NCBI RefSeq assembly: GCF_004570865.1
Contig: NZ_SPQS01000008.1
Span: 62,001 to 126,000, forward strand
Direction: 5' to 3'
Length of the DNA stretch: 64,000 bases
Source of the DNA: Bradyrhizobium frederickii
GTDB taxonomy: Bacteria; Pseudomonadota; Alphaproteobacteria; Rhizobiales; Xanthobacteraceae
Shown here: in pieces, positions 3,212-20,279 of the stretch
Position numbering within the stretch: position 1 is the stretch's first letter
How the letters are laid out: every line of letters begins with the position of its first letter
Translations under genes and position numbers: made by a program
Notes under the pieces: model-generated
Databases searched by the model: none
Told to the model about the DNA's origin: nothing
The model's input: the letters and a program-made list of their open reading frames with translations, nothing else

Positions 3212-3215
<4 letters not shown>
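2094..3215 (-). CDS. VWA domain-containing protein, CoxE-like
   Basis: A 373-residue protein with an acidic middle section (about residues 80-115), an Arg-rich section (about 142-175), and a C-terminal von Willebrand A domain with MIDAS motif DVSGS at residues 204-208. It matches CoxE, the partner of the CoxD AAA+ ATPase in maturation of the active site of CO dehydrogenase and related molybdenum hydroxylases. It overlaps the upstream MoxR gene and the downstream amidohydrolase gene by four bases each. The context (MoxR ATPase plus a Mo-hydroxylase immediately upstream) supports a maturation role; which metal or sulfur step it serves is unknown. Confidence 0.85.
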
Positions 3216-4093
<878 letters not shown>

Positions 4094-4096
4094 GGC

Positions 4097-5119
4097 CTAA
4101 CGTCGCGCCTGCGGCCGCGCGCCACCCTGGGCCTTGATCGCGCGCAGCACCTTTTCGGGCGTGATCGGCAGGTCGTCGATGCGGACGCCGACGGCGTTGA
4201 AGATCGCATTCGCAACGGCCGGCAGCACCGGATTGGCGCACATCTCACCAGGTCCCTTGGCCCCGAAGGGGCCATCGGGCGCCGGACGCTCCAGCACCGC
4301 GATATCGTGCGGGCAGATGTCGCCGGGGCCGGGCATCAAATATTCGACGAAGTCGCGGGGCCCATGAACGGGATCGGGATAATAGGGCTCCGGGGTCTCG
4401 TAGAGCGCATGGCTGACGCCCATCCAGGCGCCGCCGACCAGTTGCTGTTCGACCAGGCGGGGGTTGAGCGCGCGGCCGAGCTCATAGGCGGAATCCATCC
4501 GGACCATCGCGACCTCGCCGGTCTCGTCATCGACCTCGACTTCTGCGACGAGACAGGCATGGGCGTAACAGGTCGCCGGCGACATCTCGCCGGTCTCCGG
4601 ATCGACATCGGAAAGCGGGACCAGAAAGATGCCGCGGCCCGAGATGGTCTTGCCCTGCCTGAACTGCGCGGCAATCGCGACGTCCTTGGTTGAAATCGAA
4701 CGGTGCGGCGCGCCCTTGACGTGGATGTTGCCGCGCCCGTCGGTCTCGAGGTCGGCGGCGTTGACCTCCAGCTCCTCGGCGGCCGCCTCCATCATCACCC
4801 CGCGCGCTTCGCGGGCGGCGGCCATCACCGCATTGCCGACGCGGTGGGTGCCGCGCGAGGCGAACGAGCCCATGCAGTGCGGGCCGGTGTCGGAATCGGC
4901 GGTGTCGACATAGACGTCCTCGACGGGAACGCCGAGCGTTTCGGCGCAGATCTGCCGCGTCACCGACTTCATGCCCTGGCCGAGGTCGATCGACGACAAC
5001 GCGACCGTGAACTTGCCGCTGGGATTGGAGTGAACCAGGGCCTGGCTCGGATCGCCGCCGAGGTTCATGCCGATGGGATAGTTGATCGACGCCATGCCGC
5101 GTCCGCGATGCCGGGTCAT
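4097..5119 (-). CDS. Xanthine dehydrogenase-family molybdopterin subunit, C-terminal half
   Basis: This 340-residue protein carries only the second molybdopterin-binding domain (MoCoBD_2). It shows SSIDLGQGM (about residues 42-50), CMGSFASRGTHRVGNAV (about 82-98) and GAKGPGEM (about 286-293), whose glutamate E292 is the expected catalytic base of this enzyme family. The upstream gene holds the first half of the usual subunit. Its ATG lies one base after that gene's TGA, in another frame, so both parts are probably made by coupled translation and assemble together. It could be one gene broken by a frameshift in the Pro-rich linker, but the restart is clean. Confidence 0.82.
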   Translation of the reverse strand: MTRHRGRGMASINYPIGMNLGGDPSQALVHSNPSGKFTVALSSIDLGQGMKSVTRQICAETLGVPVEDVYVDTADSDTGPHCMGSFASRGTHRVGNAVMAAAREARGVMMEAAAEELEVNAADLETDGRGNIHVKGAPHRSISTKDVAIAAQFRQGKTISGRGIFLVPLSDVDPETGEMSPATCYAHACLVAEVEVDDETGEVAMVRMDSAYELGRALNPRLVEQQLVGGAWMGVSHALYETPEPYYPDPVHGPRDFVEYLMPGPGDICPHDIAVLERPAPDGPFGAKGPGEMCANPVLPAVANAIFNAVGVRIDDLPITPEKVLRAIKAQGGARPQARR

Positions 5120-5120
5120 G

Positions 5121-6722
5121 TCAGCGTCTCCTGGTCCCGAACACGGATGAGAACCGCGTCGCGCCGTGCGACGGCGCGGCCGGGCGCGGCGGGGGAGGCG
5201 GCGGCGCCGGCGGCGCCGGCGGCGGTGGATCGCGCGGCGGCTCCCGTGTCGCGGTCACCGGCGCGCGCTCATAGCTCGTGCGCTGCTGGACCGGCGTCGG
5301 CCTTGCGCGCGAAGAATCCGTCGGCGTCGGCGGAATCGCGGCGCGGCTGCCGCCGCCGTCCTTGCGCGAGGAGGCGCGCTTGAACTCGTCGCGGATCGGC
5401 CATTTGGCCTTTTCGGCCGCGACCTGGACGCATTCGATGAGAGCCGTGTTCTTCGCCTCGCGTCGATGTGCCTTCATGTCGCCGTCGCGATAGGCGTTGA
5501 GGATGCGGAACTCCATCGGATCCATGCCGACGAGATTTGCGAGCTTGTCCATCTGGCACTCGATGGCAAAATCCATCGCGGTGACGCCGAAGCCGCGCAT
5601 CGCGGTCGCCGGCGTGCGGTTGGTGAAGACGCAATAGACGTCGCCGTAGACGTTGGGGATGGTGTAGGGGCCCGGCAGATGCGCGGCGCATTTCACCGCG
5701 GCGTAACTGGACAGCCTTGTATAGGCGCCGCTGTCGAAATAGGCCCGGATCTTGCGCGCGACGATGCGGCCGTCGCGCATGACGCCGTCCTTGATGTAGA
5801 TGCGCTCGGCGCCGCGCGGCGGGCCGTACTGCATCTCCTCCTCGCGCCCGAACACGTAGCGCACCGGTCGCCCGGTCAGGATGGCGCCGAGAATGGCGAG
5901 CGGCTCGGTCAAGGTATCGACCTTGCCGCCAAAGCCACCGCCGACGGTGCCGCCGATGAAGTGGAAGGTGTTGGAGGGCACATCCAGGATCTTGGCGCAG
6001 GTGTCGACCGAGAAGAACAGCGCCTGGGTCGAGGTGTAGACGACGTAGCGTCCGTTGGTGTCCGGCGCGGCAATGGCGCCGTTGGTCTCGGTCGGCGCGT
6101 GCTCGATCGGCGACATCTGGTAGCGCTGTTCAAGCACGTGATCGGCGGTCGCAAGCGCTGCGTCCGCATCACCGAAGCGCAGGCGCTGATGGTCGTAGAC
6201 GTCGTGATAAATGAAGGCGTTCTTCGGATAGGTCTCGTTGACCACGGGGGCGCCGGGTTTCAGCGCGTCCTCGACGTCGAACACCGTCGGCAGAGGCTCA
6301 TAGTCGATCCTGACCTTTGCGATAGCCTCGAACGCTTCCCGCTCGCTGTCGGCGACGATGGCGAGGATCGGCTCGCCCTTGTAGCGCACCTTGTCCACCG
6401 CGAGCGAAGGCTCGTCGTCCTTGCCGAAATTGATCAGGCTGAGAAGCGTGTTGAGATTGACCGGAACGTCGGCGCCGCGAATGATCCGGCGGACGCCGGC
6501 CGAGCGTTCTGCGTCCGTGGTATCGATGCGGCGCAGCCGTGCATGGGCCTGTGCCGAGCGCACGACCTTCAGGTGCAACATGCCTTGCAGTTGATGGTCG
6601 TTAAAATAGCTCGATGTGCCCGTGATGTGCCCGAGCATGTCCTGGCGTTGGGTGCCCTTGCCGATTTCCTTGAGGTTATCGTCGCGCTCGTCGGCGAAGA
6701 TGTCCTTGCGCAGTTCCAGCAT
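5121..6722 (-). CDS. Xanthine dehydrogenase-family molybdopterin subunit, N-terminal half with Pro-rich tail
   Basis: About 533 residues. It contains the a/b hammerhead domain (about residues 20-140) and the first molybdopterin-binding domain, with FIGGTVGGGFGGK and the substrate-pocket motif TPATAMRGFG. The CO dehydrogenase motif AYxCSFR is absent, so this is a general hydroxylase and not a form I CO dehydrogenase. The last 80 or so residues are a low-complexity tail rich in Pro, Arg and Ala. I chose the ATG at 6722, which has a GAAGGA site and lies 13 bases after the 2Fe-2S gene; an in-frame start at 6791 would overlap that gene by 56 bases. Confidence 0.83.
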   Translation of the reverse strand: MLELRKDIFADERDDNLKEIGKGTQRQDMLGHITGTSSYFNDHQLQGMLHLKVVRSAQAHARLRRIDTTDAERSAGVRRIIRGADVPVNLNTLLSLINFGKDDEPSLAVDKVRYKGEPILAIVADSEREAFEAIAKVRIDYEPLPTVFDVEDALKPGAPVVNETYPKNAFIYHDVYDHQRLRFGDADAALATADHVLEQRYQMSPIEHAPTETNGAIAAPDTNGRYVVYTSTQALFFSVDTCAKILDVPSNTFHFIGGTVGGGFGGKVDTLTEPLAILGAILTGRPVRYVFGREEEMQYGPPRGAERIYIKDGVMRDGRIVARKIRAYFDSGAYTRLSSYAAVKCAAHLPGPYTIPNVYGDVYCVFTNRTPATAMRGFGVTAMDFAIECQMDKLANLVGMDPMEFRILNAYRDGDMKAHRREAKNTALIECVQVAAEKAKWPIRDEFKRASSRKDGGGSRAAIPPTPTDSSRARPTPVQQRTSYERAPVTATREPPRDPPPPAPPAPPPPPPRPAAPSHGATRFSSVFGTRRR

Positions 6723-6735
6723 GGCGCGGCGTCCT

Positions 6736-7212
6736 TCAGGCGCTGACCCGGCCGCCTGCGGCGGCGAGAATGGCATTGATGATCGGCTCATAGCCGGTGC
6801 AGCGGCAGATGTTGCCGGAGATGGCCTCCACGACCTCGTCGCGGCTCGGCGAGGGATTGCGGTTGAGCAGGGCCTTTGCGGCCATCAGCATGCCCGGCGT
6901 GCAATACCCGCACTGGGCGGCAAAATGGTCGGCAAAGGCACGCTGGAGCGGATGCAGGTTCGGGCCCTGCTTCATGCCGTCGAGCGTTTCGATCGAGCGG
7001 CCGGCGACCGTCTCGGCGAGCGTCAGGCAGGACAGGTGCAGCTCGCCGTCGACCAGCACGCTGCAGGTGCCGCAGCCGCCCTGGCCGCAGCCGAATTTCG
7101 GCGTCATGTCGCCGATCAGCTCGCGCAGCGCGACCAGCAGATTGGTGCCGCCCTCGACGAAGATCGCGACGTCGCGGCCGTTGTGACGAAATTGAAGCGG
7201 AATTTTCGACAT
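6736..7212 (-). CDS. (2Fe-2S)-binding small subunit of a molybdenum hydroxylase
   Basis: 158 residues, the usual length for the CoxS/XdhA-type subunit. All eight cluster cysteines are present: C42, C47, C50 and C62 (plant-ferredoxin-type cluster), then C101, C104, C136 and C138 (second cluster, with CGYCTPGM and CRCTGY). The protein passes electrons from the molybdenum centre to FAD. It begins five bases after the FAD subunit ends. Gene order M-S-L matches the coxMSL arrangement. Confidence 0.93.
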   Translation of the reverse strand: MSKIPLQFRHNGRDVAIFVEGGTNLLVALRELIGDMTPKFGCGQGGCGTCSVLVDGELHLSCLTLAETVAGRSIETLDGMKQGPNLHPLQRAFADHFAAQCGYCTPGMLMAAKALLNRNPSPSRDEVVEAISGNICRCTGYEPIINAILAAAGGRVSA

Positions 7213-7217
7213 GGGCT

Positions 7218-8036
7218 TTAGTCCTGTCCCGACAGCAGGCGCCGCAGATGGACGCCGACGATCTCGCGGCGATACCAGGCGCTGCCGAGCGCGTTGTCAG
7301 ATGGCGATGTTCCTTCGGTCGCTGCGGATGCGGCCGCCGCGATGGTGGCGGCATCGAGCGAGCGGCCCTCCAGCGCCCGCTCGGCGGCACGGGCGCGGAT
7401 CTGCGTCGGTGCCATCGATCCCAGCGCGATGCGAGCGCCCGCGATCCGGCCGCCGCTGATCGGCAGATACGCGGCCAGCGTGATGACCGAGCCGCCCTTC
7501 GGTTTGATGCGGGCGATCTTGCGATAGCGGAACGTCTCGGCGCTGCCTGGCCGGGTGCAGGACACCGACAGCACGAGTGTCCCGGCCTGCCGGTCGCGCG
7601 CCTGCAGGAACTCCTCGATCGGAATGTCGCGCGCACCAAAGCCGCCTTGCACGGCCACGGTGGCATCGAGCGCCAGCAGCGCGACGGTGAAATCGCCATA
7701 GGGAGTTGGCGCAAAGAGGTTGCCGCCGACGGTACCCATGTTGCGCACGGCTGGACCGCCGATCGAGCGGGCAGGAGCATGCAGGAAGGCGAGGTCGCGT
7801 TCGGCGAGGATGCGGGCGAAGGTGACGCCGGCACCCAACGTGATGCGCGGACCCGATGCGTCGATCCGGGTGAGGGCCTGATCCTGCGCGCGGACGACGG
7901 TCGAGATCGACACGTCGCCCTCGTTCAACGCGCGCATCACCAGCGTGCCGCCGCCGAGATAGCGCGCGCTGCGATCCGAAGACAGCGCGCCGGCCGCTTC
8001 GCTGGCGCTTGTAAAGGTCTTGACCGTCACGGCCAT
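7218..8036 (-). CDS. FAD-binding medium subunit of a molybdenum hydroxylase (CoxM-like)
   Basis: 272 residues starting at MAVTVKTF. The FAD-binding motifs ARYLGGGTLVMR (about residues 27-38) and GTVGGNLFAPTPYGD (about 102-116) are those of the CoxM/XdhB family, in which FAD takes electrons from the iron-sulfur subunit. The ATG at 8036 lies two bases after the upstream SRPBCC stop; a longer frame exists but would run through that gene. It forms one enzyme with the small subunit and the split large subunit downstream. Confidence 0.9.
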   Translation of the reverse strand: MAVTVKTFTSASEAAGALSSDRSARYLGGGTLVMRALNEGDVSISTVVRAQDQALTRIDASGPRITLGAGVTFARILAERDLAFLHAPARSIGGPAVRNMGTVGGNLFAPTPYGDFTVALLALDATVAVQGGFGARDIPIEEFLQARDRQAGTLVLSVSCTRPGSAETFRYRKIARIKPKGGSVITLAAYLPISGGRIAGARIALGSMAPTQIRARAAERALEGRSLDAATIAAAASAATEGTSPSDNALGSAWYRREIVGVHLRRLLSGQD

Positions 8037-8038
8037 GA

Positions 8039-8482
8039 TTATGCGGCCTCCCTTAGGTGTCGGCGGATCGCATCGAATCCGGCTTGATAGATGTCTTCGG
8101 CGACCATATGGGTGATGCGGTCCTTGTCCTCGGGCTTCGTGGTGAAGCGGGACTCCCAATGCCAGAAGGTGCGGTCACCGTCGGTGACGGGCAGCAAGCG
8201 GACATGGGCGACGTAATTGAACATCGGGATCGGGGTATCGAGCAGGCAATAGCTGAAGGTTTGCTCGAGGTCGGACAGCGCCAGCAGCTGCTCGCGCAGC
8301 TCGGAGCCGTCCTTGAGCTTGAAACGCCTGACGCAGCCGACCTTGTCGGAGGACTGCGCGCGCTCGATGGAGGAGGTCGCGACCGCCGGATGCCAGCGAT
8401 CATGCCCGTTGAAATCGCGCAGCATGGCCCACGCCGCATCGGTCGGCGCGTCCAGAATCGTGCTTTTGACGATATGCGGCAC
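8039..8482 (-). CDS. SRPBCC family protein (CoxG/PYR-like), copy 2
   Basis: 147 residues of START/Bet v1-like helix-grip fold with WAMLRDFNGHDRWHP near the N-terminus and a YxAxxRLLPVTDGDRTFW core. SRPBCC proteins bind hydrophobic ligands, and CoxG-type members accompany molybdenum hydroxylase operons. It is clearly related to the upstream copy (shared RDFNG..xWHPA, SDK.GCVR.F, PVTDGD.TF), so the two are probably an old tandem duplication. It ends two bases before the FAD subunit starts. The ligand is unknown; delivery of substrate or help with assembly is possible. Confidence 0.82.
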   Translation of the reverse strand: MPHIVKSTILDAPTDAAWAMLRDFNGHDRWHPAVATSSIERAQSSDKVGCVRRFKLKDGSELREQLLALSDLEQTFSYCLLDTPIPMFNYVAHVRLLPVTDGDRTFWHWESRFTTKPEDKDRITHMVAEDIYQAGFDAIRRHLREAA

Positions 8483-8569: not shown

Positions 8570-9007
8570 TCAGCCTCCGAATACGCGCTTTAGCGCGTCG
8601 AACCCACCCTGGAACACGCCGCCGCCGATATTGCCGACGAGCTCGGTCTCGCGCTCCGGCGCGCAGTCGAACTCGGCGGTCCATTCCACGAAGGTCTGGT
8701 CGCCGTCGGTGACGGGGGTCAGCCGCAGCGTCGCGACGTAGTTCTCGACGCCCATCGGGGATTCCAGGATCGAATAGGTGCAGAACATGTCGTAGTCGGA
8801 GAGGCCCAGGAGCTTCTCGCGGATGCGGTCGCCGTTGCGCAGGCGGAAATCTCTGACGCAACCGATTTTGTCCGAGGGCTCCCCGCCTTCGATGCGGCTT
8901 TCGGCGATGGCCGGATGCCAGTTCGGCAGACCGTTGAAATCGCGCACCCGCGCCCAGACGCGGTCGTTGCGGGCGTTGACGACGGTGGAGACATAGACGC
9001 GGGCCAT
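8570..9007 (-). CDS. SRPBCC family protein (CoxG/PYR-like), copy 1
   Basis: 145 residues of the same helix-grip fold as the next gene, with WARVRDFNGLPNWHPA near residue 18 and TLRLTPVTDGDQTFVEW in the second half. The product is cytoplasmic and shows no signal sequence. The ATG at 9007 follows the flotillin stop by nine bases, so it belongs to the same transcript. The family is known for binding small hydrophobic ligands (MxaD and polyketide cyclase-like proteins). Its specific role here is inference. Confidence 0.82.
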   Translation of the reverse strand: MARVYVSTVVNARNDRVWARVRDFNGLPNWHPAIAESRIEGGEPSDKIGCVRDFRLRNGDRIREKLLGLSDYDMFCTYSILESPMGVENYVATLRLTPVTDGDQTFVEWTAEFDCAPERETELVGNIGGGVFQGGFDALKRVFGG

Positions 9008-9016
9008 GGTGCGACC

Positions 9017-11923
9017 TCAGCTCTTCTTCCGTTGCCCACGCTCGGTCGGCGGTTCGCCACCCTCGGCCGCAGGCGGGGAGGCGGCCGGCTTGTCGCCGCC
9101 GCCGCCGCCGCCGCCCTTGCGTGCGGAATCCTTGATGCCCTGCATGTCGCGCGCCTCGCGGATCAGGCCCGGCATTTTCGAAAGACTGCCGCCCTCGACG
9201 CCGATGTCGGCCAGGATCGAGTCGATCAAGGGCGCCTGAACCCGATAGCGCAGCGCGGAATCGATGACCTCGTCGGTGGCGCTGCGGCCGCCATTGCCGT
9301 TTCCGTGGCCGTTGAGGCCGTCGACCTGGAGGATGCGGATGCCCTCGATCTTCTCCATCGGCTTGACGCTTTCGCGTACGATGCCCTCGATCCGGTCGAG
9401 CAGTTTTCTGCGGAACAGAGAGTAGCGCGCCTGGTCGGTGAGCACGTTCTCGGCCTCGTTGAGCATCCGCTGCGCCTCGGCTTCGACGGCCGCGCGCACG
9501 CGCTCGGCCTCCGCGGCGATGCGGGTCTCCTCGGCCTGCTTCTCGGCGAGCAGCACCTCGACGGTCTTGCGGCGTTTTGCGATTTCGCTCTCGCGGGCGG
9601 TAATGACGCGCTCGGTCGCTTCCGTCGCCCGCATCCGCGCCTCCTCGGCCATGGCCTTGGCTGCGGATTCTTCCAGCGACTTCTGGTGGATGGCGATCGC
9701 CTTCTCCATCAGGACCGTCTCGACCTCCTTTTCGCGGTTGACCTCGAGCTTGCGCAGCTCGCGCTCGCGACCGACGCGAGCCTCGTCGAGGCCGCGGTCG
9801 GACGCGATGCGGGCGCGCTCGACCTCTTCGCGGGAGGCGATCTCGGCCTCCTGCAGCGACTGGACGCGGGCGACCTCGAGCTGCTCGATGGCGCGGCGGC
9901 GCTCGAGGCGAGCGGCTTCCAGCGCCTGCTCGCGCGAGACGTCCGTGGTCTCGACCTCCTTGCGGGCAACGATCTCGGCCTGCCGGACCTGGCGGTCGGC
10001 ATCGATCCGCTCCGACTTCTTCGCGGAGAGCGCGATGACGCGGTCTTCGTCGGCAATCTCGATCGCCTTCTTCTGCTCGATGTTGAGCACCTCGCGCTTC
10101 TTGGACGAGTTGATGCGCTCGGCTTCGAGCGCGAGATCGACCGTAATGCGTTGGCGCTCGATGGCATCGCGCCGCTTCAGCTCGGCGGCCTCCAGCACGC
10201 CGGTGCGCTCGATTTCCAGCGAGCGCGTGTCGCGCTCGGCCTGGATGCGCTCGGCCGCGACGGCCTTCTCCTGGGCGATGCGCGCCGCCTCGATCGCCTC
10301 GCGAGAGGCGATGTCGGCTTCCTCGACGGCCCGGTTGCGGGCGATCTCCAGCGAGCGCACGCGCTCCTCCTGGGCGATGCGCGAGGCCTCGGTGGTCTCG
10401 CGCGCGGCGATGCCGGCGACTTCGAGGGCCTGGTTGCGCTCGATCTCCAGCTGCCGGGTATTCTGCTCGGCGGCGATGCGCTCGGCGGCGAGCGTCCGTT
10501 CGCGGGCGATGCGGGCGGCTTCGACGGCGCGCTGCGCCTCGATTTCGGCCTCCTGGATGGTCCGCACCTGGTGGATCTCCAGCGCGCGGGTACGCTCGTC
10601 GGAGGAGATGCGCTCGACGTTGACGATCAAGGTCTGGGCGATGCGTGCCTTTTCGGTGGCCTCGCGGGCGGCGATCTCGGCCTCGTCGACGGCACGGGTG
10701 CGTTCGATCTCGCGGCGCCTGGTCTCCTCCTCGTTGGCGATGCGGGCATCGGTGACGACGCGGTCCTGCTGGATGCGGGCTTTCTCGATCGCCTCGCGGG
10801 CCGCGATCTCGGCTTCCTCCACGGTGCGCATCCGCTCGATCTCGCGCTGGCGGACTTCGCGTTCCGACGCAATCCGCGTCGTATCGATCGCGCGCTGGTT
10901 GGCGATCCGGGTCTTCTCGATCTCCTCGCGCGCCAGCAGCTCCTTCTCCTCGATGGTGCGGGTGCGCTCGATCTCCTTCTGGCGAGTCTCGCGCTCGGAG
11001 GCGATTCGGGCCTCCGCGATCGCCTGCTCATTGGCGATCCGCGCACGTTCGATCGCCTCGCGCGCCGAGATGTGGGCCTGCTCGGCCTCGGTCTCGCGCA
11101 GCGCGCGCTCGCGGGCGACTTCCGTGCGCTGGAGTGCGCGGCGCATTTCGATGTCGCGTTCCTGCTCCAGCCGCGCGGTCTCGCTCTCGCGCTCGATGTC
11201 GAGCGCCTGACGTTCGGCCTCCAGATTGCGAGTGCGGATCTTGATCATCGAGTCCTGCTCGATGTCGTTGCGCAGCTTGCGCCGGGCCTCGATGTCCTCC
11301 ATCAAGCGGGTCAAGCCTTCGGCGTCGAACCGGTTCGAGGGGTTGAAGAATTCGAGGTCGGTCTGGTCGAGATCGGTGATGGCGACCGATTCCAGTTCGA
11401 GACCGTTCTGGGCGAGGGCTTCTGCCGCATTGGTCTTGACCCGCTCGACATAGTCGCCGCGCCGCTCATGCATCTCCTCCAGGGTCATTTCCGAAGCGAC
11501 CGAGCGGATCGCAGAGATGAACTTGCCGGCCAGCAGCGCGTGCAACTGCTCCGGTTCCATGGTGCGGCGGCCGAGCGTCGCGGCCGCGATCGAGACGGCT
11601 TCACGGGTCGCCCGGACGCGGACGTAGAAGTCGGCCTCGATGTCGACCCGCATGCGATCGCGGGTAATGACCGCATCCTGCTTGGAACGCACGATGCCCA
11701 TCGGCAGCACGTTCATGTTGACGGAGGTGTAGTCGTGGATGAAGGGCAGCACGAAGGCGCCACCGTTGATCACCACGCGCTCGCCGAGGAAGCCGGTCCG
11801 GACGAACGACACCTCCTTGGATGAGCGGTGGTAGAGCCAGTTGACGATGTAGACGCCGACTACGATGACGACGACTGCGACGATCAGCCAGAGGATGAGC
11901 TCGCCGACCAGGATCCCTGACAT
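9017..11923 (-). CDS. Flotillin/SPFH-domain membrane protein with a giant hendecad coiled coil
   Basis: 968 residues. A single N-terminal membrane segment (about residues 7-30) is followed by an SPFH/band 7 domain (about 40-200), then a charged coiled coil to about residue 880, a Gly-rich run and a Pro/Lys-rich tail. Residues 274-614 are built from eight end-to-end units of 44 residues (one of 33), i.e. multiples of 11. Bacterial flotillins organise membrane microdomains and are often under 600 residues, so this one is long. ATG at 11923 has a GGGAGAG site; the frame is open further upstream but would cover the TIM-barrel gene. The location inside a transport-catabolic operon is unusual. Confidence 0.9.
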   Translation of the reverse strand: MSGILVGELILWLIVAVVVIVVGVYIVNWLYHRSSKEVSFVRTGFLGERVVINGGAFVLPFIHDYTSVNMNVLPMGIVRSKQDAVITRDRMRVDIEADFYVRVRATREAVSIAAATLGRRTMEPEQLHALLAGKFISAIRSVASEMTLEEMHERRGDYVERVKTNAAEALAQNGLELESVAITDLDQTDLEFFNPSNRFDAEGLTRLMEDIEARRKLRNDIEQDSMIKIRTRNLEAERQALDIERESETARLEQERDIEMRRALQRTEVARERALRETEAEQAHISAREAIERARIANEQAIAEARIASERETRQKEIERTRTIEEKELLAREEIEKTRIANQRAIDTTRIASEREVRQREIERMRTVEEAEIAAREAIEKARIQQDRVVTDARIANEEETRRREIERTRAVDEAEIAAREATEKARIAQTLIVNVERISSDERTRALEIHQVRTIQEAEIEAQRAVEAARIARERTLAAERIAAEQNTRQLEIERNQALEVAGIAARETTEASRIAQEERVRSLEIARNRAVEEADIASREAIEAARIAQEKAVAAERIQAERDTRSLEIERTGVLEAAELKRRDAIERQRITVDLALEAERINSSKKREVLNIEQKKAIEIADEDRVIALSAKKSERIDADRQVRQAEIVARKEVETTDVSREQALEAARLERRRAIEQLEVARVQSLQEAEIASREEVERARIASDRGLDEARVGRERELRKLEVNREKEVETVLMEKAIAIHQKSLEESAAKAMAEEARMRATEATERVITARESEIAKRRKTVEVLLAEKQAEETRIAAEAERVRAAVEAEAQRMLNEAENVLTDQARYSLFRRKLLDRIEGIVRESVKPMEKIEGIRILQVDGLNGHGNGNGGRSATDEVIDSALRYRVQAPLIDSILADIGVEGGSLSKMPGLIREARDMQGIKDSARKGGGGGGGDKPAASPPAAEGGEPPTERGQRKKS
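10082..11104 (-). repeat. In-gene repeat: seven 132-bp units plus one 99-bp unit coding a hendecad coiled coil
   Basis: These units encode flotillin residues 274-614. Counting from the recurring IER.R start, units begin at residues 274, 318, 362, 406, 450, 494, 527 and 571; all are 44 residues except the one from 494, which is 33. The shared core reads roughly EAEIAAREAIEKARIA. Unit length is always a multiple of 11, the hendecad period, as expected for a right-handed or straight coiled coil grown by internal duplication. Confidence 0.85.
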
Positions 11924-11949: not shown

Positions 11950-12783
11950 TTATCGCGCGCCGATCGCCTTGAATTTGCGTACCTGGTCCGTCAAGGCTCG
12001 CTCGACCGGCAGCCGCTCCATCGAAGAGGCGCCGTAGAAGCCGTGGCAGTAGCGGGTGTTCTTCATGATGAAATCGGCATCCGCGGGATCCGCGATCGGA
12101 CCGCCATGAGCGAGCACCAGGATATCGGGATTGACGCTGAGCGCGGCGGAGGCCCAGATGTCGATGCGCTCCGGGCAGTCCTTCAGCTTTGCTGCGGTCT
12201 GCGCCCCGATCGTGCCGCCGGTCGTGAGGCCGAGATGGCAGACGATGATATCGGCGCCGGCGATCGCCATCGCGGCGGCTTCCTTCTCGCTGAAGACGTA
12301 AGGCGTCGTCAGGAGGTCCTTCTCGCGCGCCTTGGCGATCATGTCGATCTCCAGCGCGTAGGACATGCCGGTCTCTTCGAGGTTGGCGCGGAAGACGCCG
12401 TCGATTAGACCGACTGTCGGAAAATTCTGCACGCCGGCAAAGCCGAGCATCTTTAACTGGTCTAGAAAGACGTCCATGTCGCGGAACGGGTCGGTGCCGT
12501 TGACGCCGGCGAGCACGGGCGTCTTGCTGACCACGGGCAGTACTTCGCCGGCCATCTCCAGCACGATGGCGTTGGCGTCGCCGTAAGCCATCAGCCCCGC
12601 CAGCGAGCCGCGACCGGCCATGCGATAGCGGCCGGAATTGTAGATGACGATGAGGTCGACGCCGCCGGCCTCCTCGCACTTGGCCGACAGGCCGGTGCCG
12701 GCGCCGCCGCCGACGATCGGCTCGCCGCGCCTCGCCATCTCGTGGAATCGTTTCAGGAGTGCAGCGCGTTCAAACCGGGCCAT
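11950..12783 (-). CDS. TIM-barrel protein, Tm-1 C-terminal domain-like (PEP hydrolase-like family)
   Basis: 277 residues. The N-terminal [20 protein letters not shown], the [18 protein letters not shown] segment and [19 protein letters not shown] identify the TIM-barrel family (PF09370) that forms the C-terminal half of plant Tm-1 and occurs in bacteria beside UPF0261. The enzymatic activity is not established; annotations call it phosphoenolpyruvate hydrolase-like. It begins three bases after the LivF-Tm-1N fusion gene, so together the two genes rebuild the whole Tm-1 architecture. ATG at 12783 has a GAGGTGA site. Confidence 0.87.
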
Positions 12784-12786
12784 CGG

Positions 12787-15003
12787 TCACCTCGCTAGTC
12801 TCCGCCGCGCCCCGGTGCGGCCGAACAGGGTTCGGAATGCACTGACGATGGCGGCGGCGAAATCGGGATCGTTGATGTTCTTGGGGATGCGGATGAGCCG
12901 GCGGCTGCTGGTCTGCCGCACATCGCGCTCCAGCGCGCGGAACAGGGCGGCGTCGGCGTCCGGATCCCAGAATGGCTGGCCCCGCGCGTCGAGTGCGGAG
13001 ACGCCGCCCTCGGGCAGGAAGAAGCGCACCGGCCCATCCATCTGGTTGAGCCGCTCGGCGATCCAGCGGCCCATGCGCTCATTCTCTTCGACAGTCGTCC
13101 GCATCAGCGTTACCTGCGGGTTATGGACGTGGAATTTGCGGCCGCGATACCGCTCCGGGATGGTGTCGGGCGCGCCGAAATTGACCATGTCGAGCGCGCC
13201 GACCGAGCCGACATAGGGCAGGCGGGTGCGGACGATCGCGCCGAAGCGATCCTCGGTGGCGGGAAACACGCCGCCCATCAGCAAGTCGCAGATTTCGGTT
13301 GTCGTAATATCGATGACACCCGCGAGCTGGCCGGATTCGACGAGCTTCTCCATCGAGCGGCCGCCGACGCCCGTGGCGTGGAAGACGAGACATTCGAAGT
13401 CCTCGCCCAGATCTGCGGCGATCTTCTGGACCGCCGGGGTCGTCACGCCGAACATGGTGATGCCGACCGCAGGCAGTCCTTCGCTGGTGGCGCGCTGCCT
13501 GGCCTCGCGCTGATCGAGGCGTGCCTTAACCATGCCTGCGATCGCATTGGCGCCGTTCGACAGCACTGCACGCGAGATCGAGTTCAGTCCCTGAATGTCG
13601 GTGACCGAGTGCATCATGGTGATGTCGGCGGGGCCGACATAGGGCCCGACATCGCCAGAGGCGACGGATGATATGATCAGTTTGGGCACGCCGACCGGCA
13701 GGGTGCGCATGCCCGGGGCAACCAGCGAGGCCGCGCCCGAGCCGCCGGCGGAGATCACGCCGGCGACATTGCCCTGGCGCCGCAGCCAGCTGGCGAACGC
13801 GTCCGCCATCGCCGTCACGGCCGCGCCGCGGTCGGCGCCGAACACCGCAGCCCCGCCGCGGCCGTGGTTCAGCGCGATCTCCTGCGCCGAGACATCGCAG
13901 CTGGAGTGCTTGCCGCTGGTGGAGACGTCGACCAGCCGGGTGCGCAGGCCGCTTTCGGCGATGATATCGCGGATGAAGCGGAGTTCCGTCCCCTTGGTGT
14001 CGAGCGTGCCGACGACCAGCACGACCGGCGGCCCTGACGACTGGGACGTCACCGGCTCGCGCTTGCGCCGTGCCGTCTCGTCGAGGCGCGATATTTGCGT
14101 CGAAAGCGTGCGTGCCGCCGCTTCGATCCGTGCGATCGGCGCGGGTTGGGACCAGCGTGTCGGCGGTGTCGGGTTGGAGATGTAGATCCGGATCGGGCCG
14201 CTCGGTCGGGTGGCCTGCGGCGCCGACTTCGCCTCGGAGCCCGGAGCCGGCACGTCGAGATCCGGCGTAAGCTCGGCATGCAAGCCGACGCCGAGCAGCC
14301 GCTGCTGCAACTCGCGGTCGGCGGCGAGCCGCGCCGAGTCGATGATGCGGTTGATGCGGCCGTTGACCATGATCGCGACATTGCGCGAGATCGCGGTCGC
14401 CACGCCGATGTTCTGCTCGATCAGGAGCACGGACATGTCGCCGTCCTCACCCAACCGCAGCAGCATCTCCTCGACCTGTGCGACGATGACGGGCGCGAGT
14501 CCTTCGGTCGGTTCGTCCATGACCAGCAGTTGCGGGTTGGTCAGCAGCGCGCGCGCGATCGCCAGCATCTGCTGCTCGCCGCCGGAGAGCTGGCCGCCGC
14601 CATGGTCCTTGCGCTCGGCGAGGCGCGGAAAGGTGTCGTAGATGCGCTCGACGGTCCAGGCACCGGACCGCATCCCGCCGGCAAGTCGGAGATGCTCGTC
14701 CACGCTGAGCGAGCGCCAGAGCCGGCGGCCCTGCGGCACATAGCCGACGCCGAGGCGCGCGATGTGAGCCGGCGGCCGCCGCGTGATGTCCTCGCCGCGG
14801 ACCCGGATCGAGCCGCCGCTGACCGGTACGAGGCCCATGATGGCCTTGCACAGCGTGGTCTTGCCCATGCCGTTGCGGCCGACGACGGAGAACACGCCGC
14901 TCTCCAGCGTGAGATCGACGCCCTGGAGCGCATGCGAATGGCCGTAATAGACGTCGAGGCCGCGGACCTCGAGCGCAACGGTAGCGCGGCGGGCCTCATT
15001 CAT
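12787..15003 (-). CDS. LivF-type ABC ATPase fused to a Tm-1-like (UPF0261) ATP-binding domain
   Basis: 738 residues in two parts. Residues 1-245 are a complete LivF-like ATPase: Walker [10 protein letters not shown] (42-50), signature LSGGEQQM (139-146), Walker [12 protein letters not shown] (159-169) and H-loop region LLIEQN. A linker (about 246-325) leads to a UPF0261/Tm-1 N-terminal domain starting [17 protein letters not shown] (327-343) and reaching the C-terminus. LivF proteins are normally about 240 residues, so the extra 490 residues are a true fusion in one open frame. It overlaps the LivG gene by eight bases. The Tm-1 domain may couple transport to metabolism of the imported compound. 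Confidence 0.88.
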
Positions 15004-15778
15004 GGCCGCCTCCGAGATATAGCTCCTGCACTTCAGGATCGGACTGTATCTCTTCCGGCAGGCCTTCCTTGAAGATGCGGCCGTTGTGCATCATCGTCAC
15101 GCTCTCGACGACGCGCAGCGCCACGTCCATGTCGTGCTCGATGATGATGTAGCCGATATGGGCCGGCAGCGAGGTCAGGATCTCGATCAGCTCGGCGCGC
15201 TCGGTCGGCGAGAGGCCTGCGGCCGGCTCGTCGAACAGCACGAAGCGCGGGGCGCCGGCGAGCGCCAGTGCGATCTCGAGCTGGCGCTGCTGCCCGTGCG
15301 CGAGCTCGGCGACGCGCTGGTCCTTGACCGCAGTCAGATGCACGGCCTGCACCAGATTGTCGGCGGCGTGCATCAGCGCGTCGTTCGGGCCGGGGCGCAG
15401 GAACGAGAACCGTCCGCGCGAGACGCCGCGGCAGGCGAGGTAGACGTTGTCCTGCACGGTGAGGCCGGGAAACAGCGCTGAAATCTGATAGGTGCGCCGC
15501 AGCCCCCGGCGGATGCGCTCGTAGGGCGGGAAATGCGTGACGTCTTCGCCGAAGAAGCGGATCGTGCCTGATGTCGGCGGGAAGTCGCCGGTGATGCAGT
15601 TGAACAGCGTGGTCTTGCCGGCACCGTTGGAGCCGAGCACCGCGCGGCGTTCGCCGGGACGCACGGTGATGGTGACGTCGGTCAAGGCCGCCAGCGCCCC
15701 GAATAGCCGCGTCACGCCGCGCAGTTCCAGCGCTGCGCCGGCGCCGACAGCGGAGAGGCGCTGGGCGACGCTATCCAT
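14996..15778 (-). CDS. LivG-type ABC transporter ATP-binding protein
   Basis: 260 residues from MDSVAQRL. Walker A is [13 protein letters not shown] and the family segment [20 protein letters not shown] follows. Walker B is [12 protein letters not shown] and the H-loop segment is [11 protein letters not shown]. The signature motif is degenerate: LAHGQQRQ in place of LSGGQ, which is common in LivG. The start at 15778 overlaps the LivM stop by eight bases (ATGGATAG pattern); an in-frame start 36 bases upstream is possible but less likely. It powers uptake together with the fused LivF. Confidence 0.9.
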
Positions 15779-16859
15779 GGCCGCGCCCTCCGCCTTGGCG
15801 GTTCGCCTCGCCAAGCTGGCTCTGGCGCCAGCGCTGCCAGAGGCCGATCACGCCGTCCGACGACCAGAACACGATGGCGAGGAAGCCGAGGCCGATCAAC
15901 AGGCGGAAACGGTTGCCGTCGAGCCCGATCTTGACGAGGAAGTCGAGCGCGAAGGTGCGCAGCAGCACGAAGACCAGCGCGCCGATATAGGGACCGACCG
16001 GGCGGGTGATGCCGCCGACGACGGCGATGATGAGGATGTCGATGCAGGCGCCGACGCTGACCGAGCCGGGCGAGATCTGGCGGTAGTTCCAGACCTGGAG
16101 CACACCTGCAAGGCCCGCGATGAAGGACGCCACCGCATAGGCCGCGACGCGGTGGGCATTGACGTTGAAGCCCAGCGCGGACATGCGGCGCGGATTGTCG
16201 CGCACGCCCTGGAGGGCGAGACCGAATGGCGCACGGGAAATGTAGTCGACGGCAAAATAGCAGAGCCCGGCTGTCGCAAGCACGACATAGTAGAAGGGAA
16301 TGTCCGCCCGCCAGTCGACACCCCAGAAACGCGGCGTCGAGACGTTGTTGATGCCGGTGTGGCCGTTGAAGATCGCCCAGTTCTGGTTGGTGAAGTAGTA
16401 GAACGCGGCGCCGATCGCCAGCGTGATCATGATGGTGTAGATGCCCTCGGTGCGCACCGCCAGCGCGCCGCCGAGCGTGCCGAACATGACTGCGAGCGTC
16501 AGCGCCATCGGCACCGCCAGCCACCACGGCCAGCCGAGGCTGATATTGGCGTTGCCGCTGACACCGAACACCGCGACCATGTAAGCGCAAAAGCCCGCGA
16601 TGCTGAGCTGCATCAGGCTGACCATGCCGCCATATCCGGCCAGGAACATCAGGCTGAGCGCGACGGTGCCGAGGATCAAGGTGGTCGCAAAGATCTCGAT
16701 CAGGAAGAAGCCGTTGGCGATCAGCGGCATGATCAGCAGGATGGCCGCCACGATCCAGGCCGCGGGATTGTTGATATCGGGCCAGCCGCGCGCAGCCGGT
16801 CGTTCCACCGTTGACGCGGGCCTGTGAACCTGAACGCTGACGTCGTGAGTGACGGACAT
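15771..16859 (-). CDS. LivM-type ABC transporter permease
   Basis: 362 residues, hydrophobic, about ten predicted membrane segments. The family segments AGYGGMVSLMQLSIAGFCAY (about 73-92) and VGGITRPVGPYIGALVF in the cytoplasmic coupling region are typical of the branched-chain amino acid permease family (HAAT). Members carry amino acids, amides, urea and aromatic acids, so the name does not fix the substrate. It begins one base after the LivH stop and overlaps LivG. Confidence 0.9.
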   Translation of the reverse strand: MSVTHDVSVQVHRPASTVERPAARGWPDINNPAAWIVAAILLIMPLIANGFFLIEIFATTLILGTVALSLMFLAGYGGMVSLMQLSIAGFCAYMVAVFGVSGNANISLGWPWWLAVPMALTLAVMFGTLGGALAVRTEGIYTIMITLAIGAAFYYFTNQNWAIFNGHTGINNVSTPRFWGVDWRADIPFYYVVLATAGLCYFAVDYISRAPFGLALQGVRDNPRRMSALGFNVNAHRVAAYAVASFIAGLAGVLQVWNYRQISPGSVSVGACIDILIIAVVGGITRPVGPYIGALVFVLLRTFALDFLVKIGLDGNRFRLLIGLGFLAIVFWSSDGVIGLWQRWRQSQLGEANRQGGGRGHG

Positions 16860-16860
16860 C

Positions 16861-17871
16861 TCAGCGCCTCGCCAGCAGGCCCTGCGGCCGAAGCGCCAGC
16901 ACCAGCACCATGATCAGGAAGGTCACGACGATGGCGTAGGTGGGGATGTAGACCGAGCCGAGCTGCTCGGCGAGGCCGATGATCAGCGCGCCGAGCGCGG
17001 CGCCGGGAATCGAGCCCATGCCACCAACGATCACGACGACGAGCGAGGCGAGCAGGAAGCGGATGTCCTCGCCGGGCGAGAGCGACTGGAAAGTGCCGCC
17101 GACCACGCCGGCGATGCCGGCAAGCCCGGCGCCGAGTGCAAAGACGAGCACGAAGACGACCTGGATGCGGACGCCGGTCGCGGCGAGGATGTCGCGGTCG
17201 TCGACGCCGGCGCGGATGATCATGCCGATCCGGGTGCGGTTGAGCGCGAGCCACATCGCGATGCCGATGGCGACGGAGGCCAGGAAGATCACGAGCCGGA
17301 CCAGCGGATAGCGCAGGTAGACCGGCTCCCCCGAGGATTTCACCGCGGTGAGCAGCGGCAGCTCGATCGGGCCGATCAGCCAGTTCGGGGTCTGGATCTG
17401 GTAGAAGTCGCCGCCGCAGGCCCACAGCATCAGATCAGCGAACACGATCGAGAGCCCGATCGTCACCATGGTCTGGCGCAGATCCTGGCCCTCCATGCGG
17501 CGGAACACGAGAACCTGGAGTAGCACGCCGACCAGCGCGGTCAGGACGAAGGCGACGATGAACGACAGGACCCAGGAGCCGGTGGAGGCGCTGATAGCGT
17601 AGCCGACATAGCCGCCGAACAAATAGAGCGAGCCGTGCGCGAGGTTGACGTTGCGCATCAGGCCGAAGATCAGCGTGAAGCCGCTGGCGACGAGGAAATA
17701 CAGACCTCCCAGCGTGATGCCGTTGAAGACCGCGTTGAGGAACACCCGCTTGCGGCCGACGGCCTCTTCGAGGCCCGGCGGCCACACGGCGAAGATCAGC
17801 CACAGTGCCACCGCGACCGCGATGATGACGATCAATGCCCAGGCGGGATGGCGCTCGATGAAGCGGGTCAT
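16861..17871 (-). CDS. LivH-type ABC transporter permease
   Basis: 336 residues with about eight membrane segments and the LivH signatures GITLGGLYFLVASGFTLIFG (about 50-69), VNLAHGSLYLFGGYVGY, and VVVIVGGMGSIPGAALGALI near the C-terminus. It pairs with the LivM gene one base downstream. The upstream 201 bases to the AraC gene contain a palindrome, so a second promoter there cannot be excluded. Confidence 0.9.
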   Translation of the reverse strand: MTRFIERHPAWALIVIIAVAVALWLIFAVWPPGLEEAVGRKRVFLNAVFNGITLGGLYFLVASGFTLIFGLMRNVNLAHGSLYLFGGYVGYAISASTGSWVLSFIVAFVLTALVGVLLQVLVFRRMEGQDLRQTMVTIGLSIVFADLMLWACGGDFYQIQTPNWLIGPIELPLLTAVKSSGEPVYLRYPLVRLVIFLASVAIGIAMWLALNRTRIGMIIRAGVDDRDILAATGVRIQVVFVLVFALGAGLAGIAGVVGGTFQSLSPGEDIRFLLASLVVVIVGGMGSIPGAALGALIIGLAEQLGSVYIPTYAIVVTFLIMVLVLALRPQGLLARR

Positions 17872-18072: not shown

Positions 18073-18900
18073 TCAGGCGCGCAAAACCTTGGCGGCGCGG
18101 CGATAATCGGTCGGGGCCATCCCGACATTGGCGGCGAAAAAACGCGTGAAACCGCTTTGCGAGGAGAAGCCGAGATCGAAGCCGATATCGGCGATCGGCG
18201 CCTCGCTCGCCACCAGTGCCTCCAGCGCCTGCTCCATCATCAGCGTGTTGAGATAGAGGTGCGGCGTGACGCCGGTCTGGGTGCGGAACAGCCGGTAGAA
18301 ATGCGGTCGCGACAGGCCGGATTCGCGCGCGATGGTGTCGAGCTCGATCTCGGCGCCCGGACTTTCCGACATCATCTTGATGCACTTGCGCACGCGAAAA
18401 TCGGTGACGGAGCCGTTCGCGCGCGGATCGCGCGCGGTCTCCGCCTGTTGCCAGCTCTCGTCGTAGCAGATGTCGATCAGCCTTCTCAGCTCGCCATCGA
18501 GGCTATTGAGCGAGGGTGCGCCGCACACGAGGGCGGCTGCGTGCCTGATATGCTTGTCCAGCGCGACCGACCTCGTGAACTGGGTGCGGCCGAAGCGCAA
18601 CCGGTCTGTGCCGGGCGCGTCGGGGGCAAACCACTCGGCATTGACGTAGAGCACGAAGAAAACGGCGCCGCCTTCGAGGTCGGACGGCAGAAAATTATGC
18701 GGTTCCCATGGATTGACCGCGACGACGGAACCTTCGGTGAGATCGTAACGTCCGTCGCTGACATCGATGCATGCGGGACGCCCCCCGACATGGAAGATCA
18801 AATGACCTTCACGATGCGCGTGGATGTTGAAAGGGCGGTTCAACTGATAGACCGTCGCCCGGCCGAAGCGGCCGTGGAAGACGGCGAGCGCCCGGCTCAT
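18073..18900 (-). CDS. AraC-family transcriptional regulator
   Basis: 275 residues. An N-terminal cupin-like sensor domain (about 1-150, with FNIHAHREGHLIFHVGG) precedes the C-terminal double helix-turn-helix (about 175-275: LDTIARESGLSRPHFYRLFR and IADIGFDLGFSSQSGFTRFF). It lies between the binding-protein gene and the permease genes in the same direction, which makes it the best candidate for local control of the operon, probably in response to the transported compound. ATG at 18900 is preceded by GGGAGGG. Confidence 0.88.
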   Translation of the reverse strand: MSRALAVFHGRFGRATVYQLNRPFNIHAHREGHLIFHVGGRPACIDVSDGRYDLTEGSVVAVNPWEPHNFLPSDLEGGAVFFVLYVNAEWFAPDAPGTDRLRFGRTQFTRSVALDKHIRHAAALVCGAPSLNSLDGELRRLIDICYDESWQQAETARDPRANGSVTDFRVRKCIKMMSESPGAEIELDTIARESGLSRPHFYRLFRTQTGVTPHLYLNTLMMEQALEALVASEAPIADIGFDLGFSSQSGFTRFFAANVGMAPTDYRRAAKVLRA

Positions 18901-19028: not shown

Positions 19029-20279
19029 TCAGTACTTCTTACATTCCGGTACTGTACGGCTTGGCAAACCGATCTTTGCGAACACTGCAGGGTCATAGCC
19101 CAGCGTCTGGTTGACGTTGGGAATCACCTTCACGACCTTCGAGAACAGCGCGCCCTTGCCGTCGTCGACGACTTCGGTGACGAAGTTTGTGCCGATCGCC
19201 TGTCGGTTGGAGTCGAGCTTGATCTTGCCGTTAGGCGCGTCGATCTCGATCTTGGCGAGGGCTTCCTTGTACTTGGCCTGGTTGTTGGAGAGATCGCCAT
19301 TGACCTGACGCAGCGCCAGGATCAGCGCCATGGTCGAGTCGTAATAGTTGGTGGCGAGCAGCGACGGGCTCGGGAAGCGCTTGTTGGGCGGGAAGGCGTC
19401 CTGATAGGCCTTCACGAATTTCTGCCAGCCCGGATCCTCCCAGGTGTCGGCCTGGCCGCTCGCCGCGATGGTGCCGATCAGAGCGTTCTTGGCGTTGCCC
19501 TTGGACGACAGGATGGTCTGGTCGATCATGATGGAACCGCCCATCAGATGCGCCTTGCCGCCGGCCTGCTGGTACTGGTTGAGGAAGTTGACGGCGTCGG
19601 CGCCGCCGAGGCCCAGATAGATCGCATCGACATCATCGGGCAGCGCCGCGATGACCGAGGCAAAGTCCTTGGTGCCGAGCGGCACCCATTGCCGGTTGGT
19701 GACCTGTCCGCCGGCGCCGCAGAATTCGAGCACGAGGCCGAACACCTGTGTGTAGATGAAGGAATAGTCCTCGCCGACGGTCGCGATCTTGCGATACTTC
19801 TTCTCGTCATAGGCGTATTTGCCGAGGCCCACCTGCCACTGCGCACCGTCCATGTTGTAACGGAAGAAGTTCGGGGCGGGATCGACATAGGTCGTTTCCT
19901 GGGCGCCCGAAGCGGCGTTGATGAAGGTCAGCTCCGGATGAGTCTTTGCGAAATTCTTGACGGCGATGCCTTCGTCACCAGACAGCGGAGACAGCAGGAT
20001 CTGCACCTTGTCCTGCTCGATCAGCTTTCGCACGGCACGGACCGCTGAGTCGGGCGTCGCGTCCGTGGAGGCGATGATGAATTCGAGCTCCTTGTCGCCG
20101 ACCTTCTTGCCCAGCACGTTGAGCGCGGTCTGGTGGCCGCGGATGCCGTCCTCGCCGAGCACGGTGTAGGTGCCTTCGAGGGTCGCGGTGACGCCGACCT
20201 TGATCTTCTCCTGGGCGATTGCTGCGCCCGAAAGAAACAAGCTGCTCAGCGCGAGCAGTCCCACACTGCATTTCAACAT
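19029..20279 (-). CDS. Liv-type periplasmic substrate-binding protein
   Basis: 416 residues. A Sec signal peptide spans about residues 1-22 (leader ending AAIAQ) and is followed by the KIKVGVTATLEGTYTVLGEDG opening of the Peripla_BP_6 (LivK-like) fold. It captures the substrate for the permease and ATPase genes downstream and is the first gene of the run, behind a strong GGGAGGAG site. The 128-base gap to the AraC gene could hold a processing site, which would let the binding protein be made in excess. The ligand is unknown. Confidence 0.88.
   Translation of the reverse strand: MLKCSVGLLALSSLFLSGAAIAQEKIKVGVTATLEGTYTVLGEDGIRGHQTALNVLGKKVGDKELEFIIASTDATPDSAVRAVRKLIEQDKVQILLSPLSGDEGIAVKNFAKTHPELTFINAASGAQETTYVDPAPNFFRYNMDGAQWQVGLGKYAYDEKKYRKIATVGEDYSFIYTQVFGLVLEFCGAGGQVTNRQWVPLGTKDFASVIAALPDDVDAIYLGLGGADAVNFLNQYQQAGGKAHLMGGSIMIDQTILSSKGNAKNALIGTIAASGQADTWEDPGWQKFVKAYQDAFPPNKRFPSPSLLATNYYDSTMALILALRQVNGDLSNNQAKYKEALAKIEIDAPNGKIKLDSNRQAIGTNFVTEVVDDGKGALFSKVVKVIPNVNQTLGYDPAVFAKIGLPSRTVPECKKY

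Follow-up and report, generated by a model that had tools for sequence, protein, structure and literature searches.

The window analysed here, a 64,000-nucleotide stretch of Bradyrhizobium frederickii (contig NZ_SPQS01000008.1, positions 62,001 to 126,000), carries a gene in which a complete LivF-type ATPase of an ATP-binding cassette (ABC) importer is fused to a UPF0261 domain, the counterpart of the N-terminal half of the plant protein Tm-1, which gives tomato resistance to a virus. Our reading, to which we assign a probability of roughly one half, is that the product is an importer component bearing half of a two-part enzyme, encoded in an operon for uptake and oxidation. In this reading, the LivF ATPase belonged to a LivHMGF importer and became fused to a UPF0261 protein encoded alongside it, and UPF0261 together with a PF09370 barrel would make up a cytoplasmic enzyme of two parts, which plants combine in the single chain Tm-1. 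A tether of about 80 residues would hold the UPF0261 half at the importer, and the incoming compound would be passed to the UPF0261/PF09370 pair and to a molybdenum hydroxylase (type I operons) or a zinc alcohol dehydrogenase (type II operons). The elements at the centre of this proposal are the following:

12787..15003, minus strand: LivF::UPF0261 fusion of 738 residues (ATPase 1-242, tether 243-326, UPF0261 N half 327-495, C half 511-726)
14098..14199, minus strand: codons of the conserved tether motif (residues 269-302 of the fusion)
11950..12783, minus strand: PF09370 (phosphoenolpyruvate hydrolase-like) barrel of 277 residues, family of the plant Tm-1 C-terminal half

The sequence-only reading of this DNA had described a single 738-residue frame with both domains and a PF09370-type barrel three bases downstream, and Pfam confirms this architecture. 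The frame is stop-free in the open-frame listing of the window and matches ABC_tran at residues 26-166 (98.6 bits, cut-off 25), while the expected UPF0261 match beyond residue 320 is present in two parts, UPF0261 at residues 327-495 (202.4 bits, cut-off 27) and UPF0261_C at residues 511-726 (309.2 bits, cut-off 27). The barrel gene begins exactly 3 bases after the fusion (TGA CCG ATG), covers model positions 2-267 of 267 of PF09370 with 428.7 bits (cut-off 33.8), and scores 401.8 bits against PDB 2p10 (Mll9387). At the other end, the ATG of the fusion overlaps the LivG stop. The solved relatives of the fusion are Tm-1 (3wry, 340.9 bits), the UPF0261 protein 9mpy (192.1 bits) and the ABC transporter ATPase 1ji0 (169.6 bits); the Tm-1 alignment spans nearly the entire UPF0261 domain and retains shared blocks, one of which starts GTx. 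Work on Tm-1 has reported ATP binding, which would be expected of the UPF0261 family as well.

A sequencing or assembly error that merged two genes has nothing in its favour beyond the existence of unfused relatives, and this explanation is refuted. In a set of 80 loci, the best of 175 relatives, chosen by likeness with frame length ignored (79 titled Bradyrhizobium and one Frankia sp. RB7), the ATPase and UPF0261 share a single open frame of 734-769 residues in all 80, and none has the stop between residues 245 and 325 that two wrongly joined genes had been predicted to reveal. Both halves, moreover, are under purifying selection. The fusion is genuine and well conserved. A further 56 open fusion frames, which bring the total to 136 with the window, were mostly picked by frame length and thus document spread rather than the absence of stops. 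The 136 frames combine the similarity-picked loci, the loci from sampled genomes with the window, and two plasmid loci. The sampled-genome loci comprise 80 fetched regions, of which 54 were selected because their frame was long and 26 because it was short; 53 of the first group are fused, so that with the window this set holds 54 fused and 27 unfused loci. The remaining long frame (L213, 740 residues) was rejected as a fusion: nothing in it resembles LivF, and its length appears to come from upstream extension.

UPF0261 frames of at least 600 residues, with the ATPase confirmed in some of them, occur in 21 of 26 sampled genomes of the genus, in at least 60 of 397 sampled genomes of the order (G440, whose frame is not a fusion, is excluded) and in 14 of 398 genomes of the phylum sample, none of them outside the class. 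The plasmid search added a fusion in the betaproteobacterium Variovorax, and the fused rows of the UPF0261 tree span 22 family codes plus the two plasmid loci.

Both parts of the fusion retain the residues expected of functional proteins of their families. The window protein has the Walker A, signature and Walker B motifs, and across the 136 fused frames Walker B with EQN is present in all, the signature in 133 and the Walker A pattern in 130, the misses of the last including one locus (L198) truncated by its contig end. One LivG and the fused LivF are the only ATPases of this kind in the window operon; therefore, the fusion should be a working part of the transporter, a LivF-type ATPase presumed from its domains and operon to power substrate uptake. 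In UPF0261, 98 columns are at least 95% conserved in 81 fused and unfused rows including the window (L213 and L219 were dropped), and no fused row departs at more than three of them except L206. Among six fused rows outside the column definition, five depart at 0-1 of the 98 positions and L206 at 31.

PF09370 accompanies most fused loci. Of 133 such loci, 127 contain a PF09370 gene, which in 124 lies directly downstream (-20 to 60 bases). The idea that the fusion always precedes PF09370 fails on the other six, and unfused operons of the same order also exist. Four of the six genomes (G531, G533, G397 and G497) carry a copy elsewhere, and genome searches detected none in G447 (93% complete) or G561, so an obligatory partnership was rejected.

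Locus L206, from G561 (100% complete, 2% contamination), combines this absence with decay of the fused UPF0261 domain. Its 31 departures at the 98 conserved positions compare with seven in the next worst row, and its UPF0261_C has a mean identity of 43.9% to the other type I loci, against a median of 70.1% (z -14.4; L240 was dropped from this comparison). The fusion frame is still open, L206 ranks first among 42 loci in mean identity of the tether motif, LivG and SPFH are ordinary, and LivH and LivM are lowish. Because PF09370 is missing and UPF0261_C eroded while the tether, LivG and flotillin are kept, UPF0261 and the barrel probably work as a pair that is separable from transport. UPF0261_C seems to be kept only alongside PF09370, whereas the ATPase motifs and tether are kept without it. 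Retention of the transporter genes in this genome also argues that the importer can work without UPF0261_C activity. Of an earlier proposal, one half is borne out: an importer ATPase is physically joined to the Tm-1 N-terminal domain, but a direct coupling of transport to chemistry on the imported compound is unproven.

L206 also bears on the suggestion that UPF0261 is a regulatory domain of the importer, one that would bind a nucleotide or metabolite inside the cell and so switch the ATPase in the manner of the C-terminal sensors of MetN, OpuA and ModC. Such sensor domains are common on importer ATPases, and at L215:1933-3786, next to an operon with unfused UPF0261, PF09370 makes up the N-terminal domain of a sigma-54 activator, an arrangement which suggests that the barrel is able to act as a ligand sensor. 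We nevertheless consider a regulatory role unlikely: fused UPF0261 copies other than L206 retain the residues conserved in free UPF0261, the erosion in L206 accompanies the absence of PF09370 and not a loss of transport genes, a tether of 71-114 residues is unlike a rigid switch, and operons with a free UPF0261 exist. Nine more sigma-54-activator-like PF09370 frames, grouped by similarity alone, were observed in the sampled loci.

The tether is mostly 81-82 residues long in the fused loci, with variable ends and an invariant middle of consensus [RK][IV]YxSNPxxPTRWSxxVPVxxIExxART. TRW or NRW is found in 136 of 136 fused linkers and in none of 30 unfused UPF0261 proteins ahead of the domain, and NPxxP[TN]RW in 43 of 56 diverse linkers and all 80 similarity-picked linkers. 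Those 43 also agree at positions outside the query pattern: all have [RK] and [IV] ahead of the tyrosine and the later A-R, 42 have the P of VP and 41 have the E. The ratio of nonsynonymous to synonymous substitution rates (dN/dS) was computed from eight sequences (the window and seven similarity-picked loci), with values of 0.11 in the motif, 0.46 and 0.35 in the two flanking segments, 0.13 in the ATPase domain and 0.14 in UPF0261; judged by these ratios, strong purifying selection acts on the motif, and the segments on either side of it evolve fast. When 17 genomes were scanned with a profile of the type I motif, it matched the fusion in five at E <1e-14 and everything else at E 4e-4 or weaker; the fusions in G343, G397 and G686, whose motif has diverged, escaped it, so similarly diverged copies at other sites would escape as well. 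Two non-fusion matches, in G165 (E 4e-4) and G338 (E 0.017), both genomes carrying the unfused operon, lie inside longer genes in another reading frame and were judged to be chance.

Docking of PF09370 by the motif is weakened as an explanation, since loci L206 and L176 keep the motif though the genome search found no PF09370. The probable partner of the motif is a component that remains at the membrane, with the transporter itself and the operon flotillin as candidates. It could alternatively serve as an intramolecular clamp on the ATPase or UPF0261 with no outside partner, a proposal that concerns the motif alone and is compatible with the tethered half-enzyme. In its favour, the motif persists in L206 and L176, whose genomes gave no PF09370, and in L200 (genome G547), where no SPFH gene was found. 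We lean against it all the same: G547 is 89% complete in 550 contigs, so its SPFH gene may have been missed, and none of the LivF C-termini or UPF0261 N-termini examined from unfused genes shows the motif.

An SPFH/flotillin-type gene accompanies 50 of 54 fused loci and none of 27 unfused loci. Among the exceptions (L193, L195, L200 and L208), two genomes (G395 and G392) carry an operon-type SPFH gene elsewhere, and a third (G519) has one on the locus's own contig, at its end; the fourth is G547. No operon-type SPFH was found in the four genomes with the unfused operon. These figures, like the selected tether motif, would not be expected if the fusion merely set the stoichiometry or co-expression of two adjacent operon genes with no functional contact. 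That explanation agrees with the identical gene order found without fusion and with adjoining window genes that overlap or lie 3 bases apart, and we regard it as improbable. A more elaborate version of the tethered half-enzyme is doubtful at present: a membrane assembly in which the motif on the importer's arm would dock on a flotillin scaffold, the compound going from the permease to the UPF0261/PF09370 pair and the molybdenum hydroxylase along the membrane surface.

Two operon types carry the fusion, their genes having been identified via representatives of each gene cluster. Type I typically reads AraC, LivH, LivM, LivG, fusion, PF09370, SPFH/flotillin, two SRPBCC genes and molybdenum hydroxylase, with the binding protein often upstream; type II reads LivH, LivM, binding protein, LivG, fusion, PF09370, SPFH, SRPBCC and an SRPBCC joined to a zinc alcohol dehydrogenase, often with an amidohydrolase upstream. 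The 42 loci with a type I tether include AraC in 39, molybdenum hydroxylase in 35 and the SRPBCC-alcohol dehydrogenase fusion in none; the 12 other loci (type II, including L172 and L210) include neither AraC nor hydroxylase, and 11 have the SRPBCC-alcohol dehydrogenase fusion. This second fusion was assigned by Pfam in L203 (3330-4841) and by similarity group in 10 further loci.

Regarding its origin, the unfused order LivH-LivM-binding protein-LivG-LivF-UPF0261-PF09370 occurs in L215, L222, L223 and L226 and in Thermomicrobium roseum (L242), and in four unfused loci the end of LivF and the start of UPF0261 approximately match the two boundaries of the tether. A branch of the ATPase tree (support 90, not starred) has 59 fused rows to one side, and in the UPF0261 tree 60 of 62 fused rows form one clade with support 99, with L172 and the Variovorax locus L241 outside. 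A constraint holding 61 fused rows together gave a higher likelihood (approximately unbiased test, p-AU 0.83); L213, L219 and L206 were left out of this test. Most of the 80 similarity-picked loci were omitted from both trees, which are unrooted. One fusion event is the simplest reading, not rejected by the trees and not proven, and the direction is presumed to be fusion rather than fission.

Several points weigh against the tethered half-enzyme. We infer, and do not observe, that the imported compound is the substrate of UPF0261 and PF09370, and likewise that tethering would serve its supply. To our knowledge, no biochemical function has been assigned to either family, and none was encountered in the open-access literature searched. 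Erosion in L206 is strongest in UPF0261_C and is not confined to it: the ATPase domain has the lowest mean identity of 42 (68.6 vs 74.3, z -3.4), the first SRPBCC protein the lowest of 35 (69.4 vs 75.5, z -3.2) and UPF0261_N the second lowest of 42 (61.4 vs 66.8). The L206 row also has an odd letter make-up, and the joint erosion comes from a single genome, the second genome of its genus being without the gene. In G447, no PF09370 was detected (at 93% completeness), yet UPF0261 is intact. Finally, AlphaFold2 on the fusion with 42 Bradyrhizobium-type sequences gave a predicted local distance difference test (pLDDT) score of 47.8, and this unusable model was discarded.

Comparison with known systems helps to define what is distinctive about the fusion. 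Plant Tm-1 (PDB 3wry, 3wrw) aligns with the UPF0261 domain over almost its full length (340.9 bits) and, according to the available text of PMC5028733, also bears a C-terminal PF09370-type barrel. It differs in that UPF0261 and the barrel occupy one chain with no ABC ATPase, whereas in the window LivF carries the UPF0261 domain and the barrel has a gene of its own past a stop codon. Free bacterial UPF0261 and PF09370 genes, reported to co-evolve in the same available text (PMC5028733), belong to the same two families, are often adjacent and share the conserved residues, but have no ATPase, no tether motif (30 proteins) and no SPFH gene (27 loci). The unfused operon (L215, L222, L223, L226, L242) shares the gene order of the fused one, while its LivF and UPF0261 are two genes, without a tether and, in the first four genomes, without an operon-type SPFH. 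Branched-chain amino acid and urea importers (PDB 1ji0; UrtE TIGR03410) resemble the fusion system in their complete ATPase domain and in the accompanying LivH, LivM, LivG and binding protein; the fusion differs by a C-terminal extension of about 490 residues and reaches 223.1 bits against UrtE (cut-off 285.8) and 150 against the LivF equivalog (cut-off 441).

In the accessible text of the open-access literature searched (including PMC5028733, PMC2364660 and PMC8508112), no description of a LivF-UPF0261 fusion was found, and the term ABC is absent from the main text of PMC5028733. Fusion-type proteins exist in database records titled "ABC transporter permease" (RefSeq WP_342075027.1 from Yoonia; GenBank QRF61637.1 from Variovorax), although Pfam places no permease domain in the window's fusion protein. 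The architecture is presumably listed in domain databases. The selection on the tether motif, the flotillin association and the absence of PF09370 together with an eroded UPF0261_C in L206 are new here, and relative to importer ATPases with other C-terminal modules we rate as new that the module is a proposed Tm-1-type half-enzyme on a selected tether. As a design for an ABC importer it would be new: an enzyme-like module on a tether whose motif is under selection, next to a flotillin gene. Tm-1 is one of the classical resistance genes of plants, for whose bacterial relatives we found no established role; now that its N-terminal half is seen attached to the ATPase of an importer within a conserved operon, the search for a function can focus on how one imported compound is metabolised, and the fusion operon offers a testable system in soil bacteria.

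The remaining genes of the window operon are as follows:

19029..20279, minus strand: periplasmic substrate-binding protein (Peripla_BP_6), by domain match
18073..18900, minus strand: AraC-family regulator, by domain match
16861..17871, minus strand: LivH-type permease, by domain match
15771..16859, minus strand: LivM-type permease, by domain match
14996..15814, minus strand: LivG-type ATPase that presumably pairs with the fused LivF, with a stop that overlaps the fusion start
9017..11923, minus strand: SPFH/flotillin protein (Band_7 + Flot), 968 residues from the likely start at 11923 (mechanical frame to 12679)
8570..9007, minus strand: SRPBCC (Polyketide_cyc2) protein 1, by domain match, which we take to be CoxG-like
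8039..8482, minus strand: SRPBCC (Polyketide_cyc2) protein 2, by domain match
7218..8036, minus strand: molybdenum hydroxylase flavin adenine dinucleotide (FAD) subunit (FAD_binding_5 + CO_deh_flav_C), start 8036 assumed
6736..7212, minus strand: molybdenum hydroxylase 2Fe-2S subunit, by domain match
5121..6791, minus strand: molybdenum-binding subunit, N-terminal part (Ald_Xan_dh_C + MoCoBD_1), a separate gene
4097..5119, minus strand: molybdenum-binding subunit, C-terminal part (MoCoBD_2), a separate gene
3212..4093, minus strand: AAA ATPase, occupying the position that MoxR has in the Yoonia operon
2094..3215, minus strand: VWA_CoxE protein, by domain match
1213..2097, minus strand: Amidohydro_2 protein, below the fuconolactonase model cut-off
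333..1181, minus strand: metallo-beta-lactamase-fold protein, below the lactonase model cut-offs

This set resembles aerobic carbon monoxide (CO) dehydrogenase, whose coxM, S, L, D, E and G supply the corresponding roles, in that the FAD, 2Fe-2S and molybdenum subunits, a MoxR-like ATPase, VWA_CoxE and SRPBCC are grouped. It differs in having the molybdenum subunit split over two genes, which score 170.3 and 116.2 bits against TIGR02416 (cut-off 991.15) and 158.9 and 147.4 against NF040766 (cut-off 950); the split lowers each score, and the sums still remain far below the cut-offs. The subunit likewise falls far under the cut-offs of every other full-length model listed. The nearest solved relatives of the binding protein are 4zpj (118.8 bits), 4evq and 4ey3, the last two of which we take to be binders of benzoate-type acids. 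An iron alcohol dehydrogenase neighbours 19 of 42 type I loci, its representative narrowly passing the 4-hydroxybutyrate dehydrogenase cut-off (504.5 vs 500). Uptake and oxidation of one compound is the best reading of the operon, and an aromatic or heterocyclic substrate is a tentative guess that we would not back at even odds.

The same setting in a transport and oxidation operon speaks against an anti-phage role, which would follow by analogy from plant Tm-1, an inhibitor of tobamovirus replication, and which we regard as very improbable. Besides the sequence kinship with Tm-1, PADLOC models match the fusion, the best being mad3 (69.7 bits) with its best stretch in the ATPase part, as for the five others listed; yet all 6 stretches lie within residues 23-212, which looks like general similarity among ABC-type ATPases, and neither the barrel nor the flotillin protein has a PADLOC match.

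Further observations concern the split subunit and other copies of the two families. The division into MoCoBD_1 and MoCoBD_2 is present in 99 of 99 fused loci with both parts, while 10 more have the first part only and 27 have none; in the window, the first part ends in a proline-rich C-terminal tail, and the Thermomicrobium annotation gives the molybdenum subunit as one undivided gene. Past the unfused operon of Thermomicrobium roseum (L242:15637-25075) lie genes for phosphoenolpyruvate (PEP)/pyruvate-binding and PEP-utilizing proteins, an FAA hydrolase and a xanthine-dehydrogenase-type enzyme, which may hint at the pathway. The distant UPF0261 of L213 (30% identity) is located amid genes that by eye resemble aromatic catabolism (ring-cleavage dioxygenase-like, aldehyde dehydrogenase and FAA hydrolase-like). 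A PF09370 copy with internal stops (G105:C144:5054-5848) has an intact UPF0261-PF09370 pair a few kilobases away on the same contig. The window's own genome holds a second, distant UPF0261-PF09370 pair (L219, G000:C60:40000-59000; 37-38% identity) and a third PF09370 at G000:C60:95471-96253, within a 595-residue frame.

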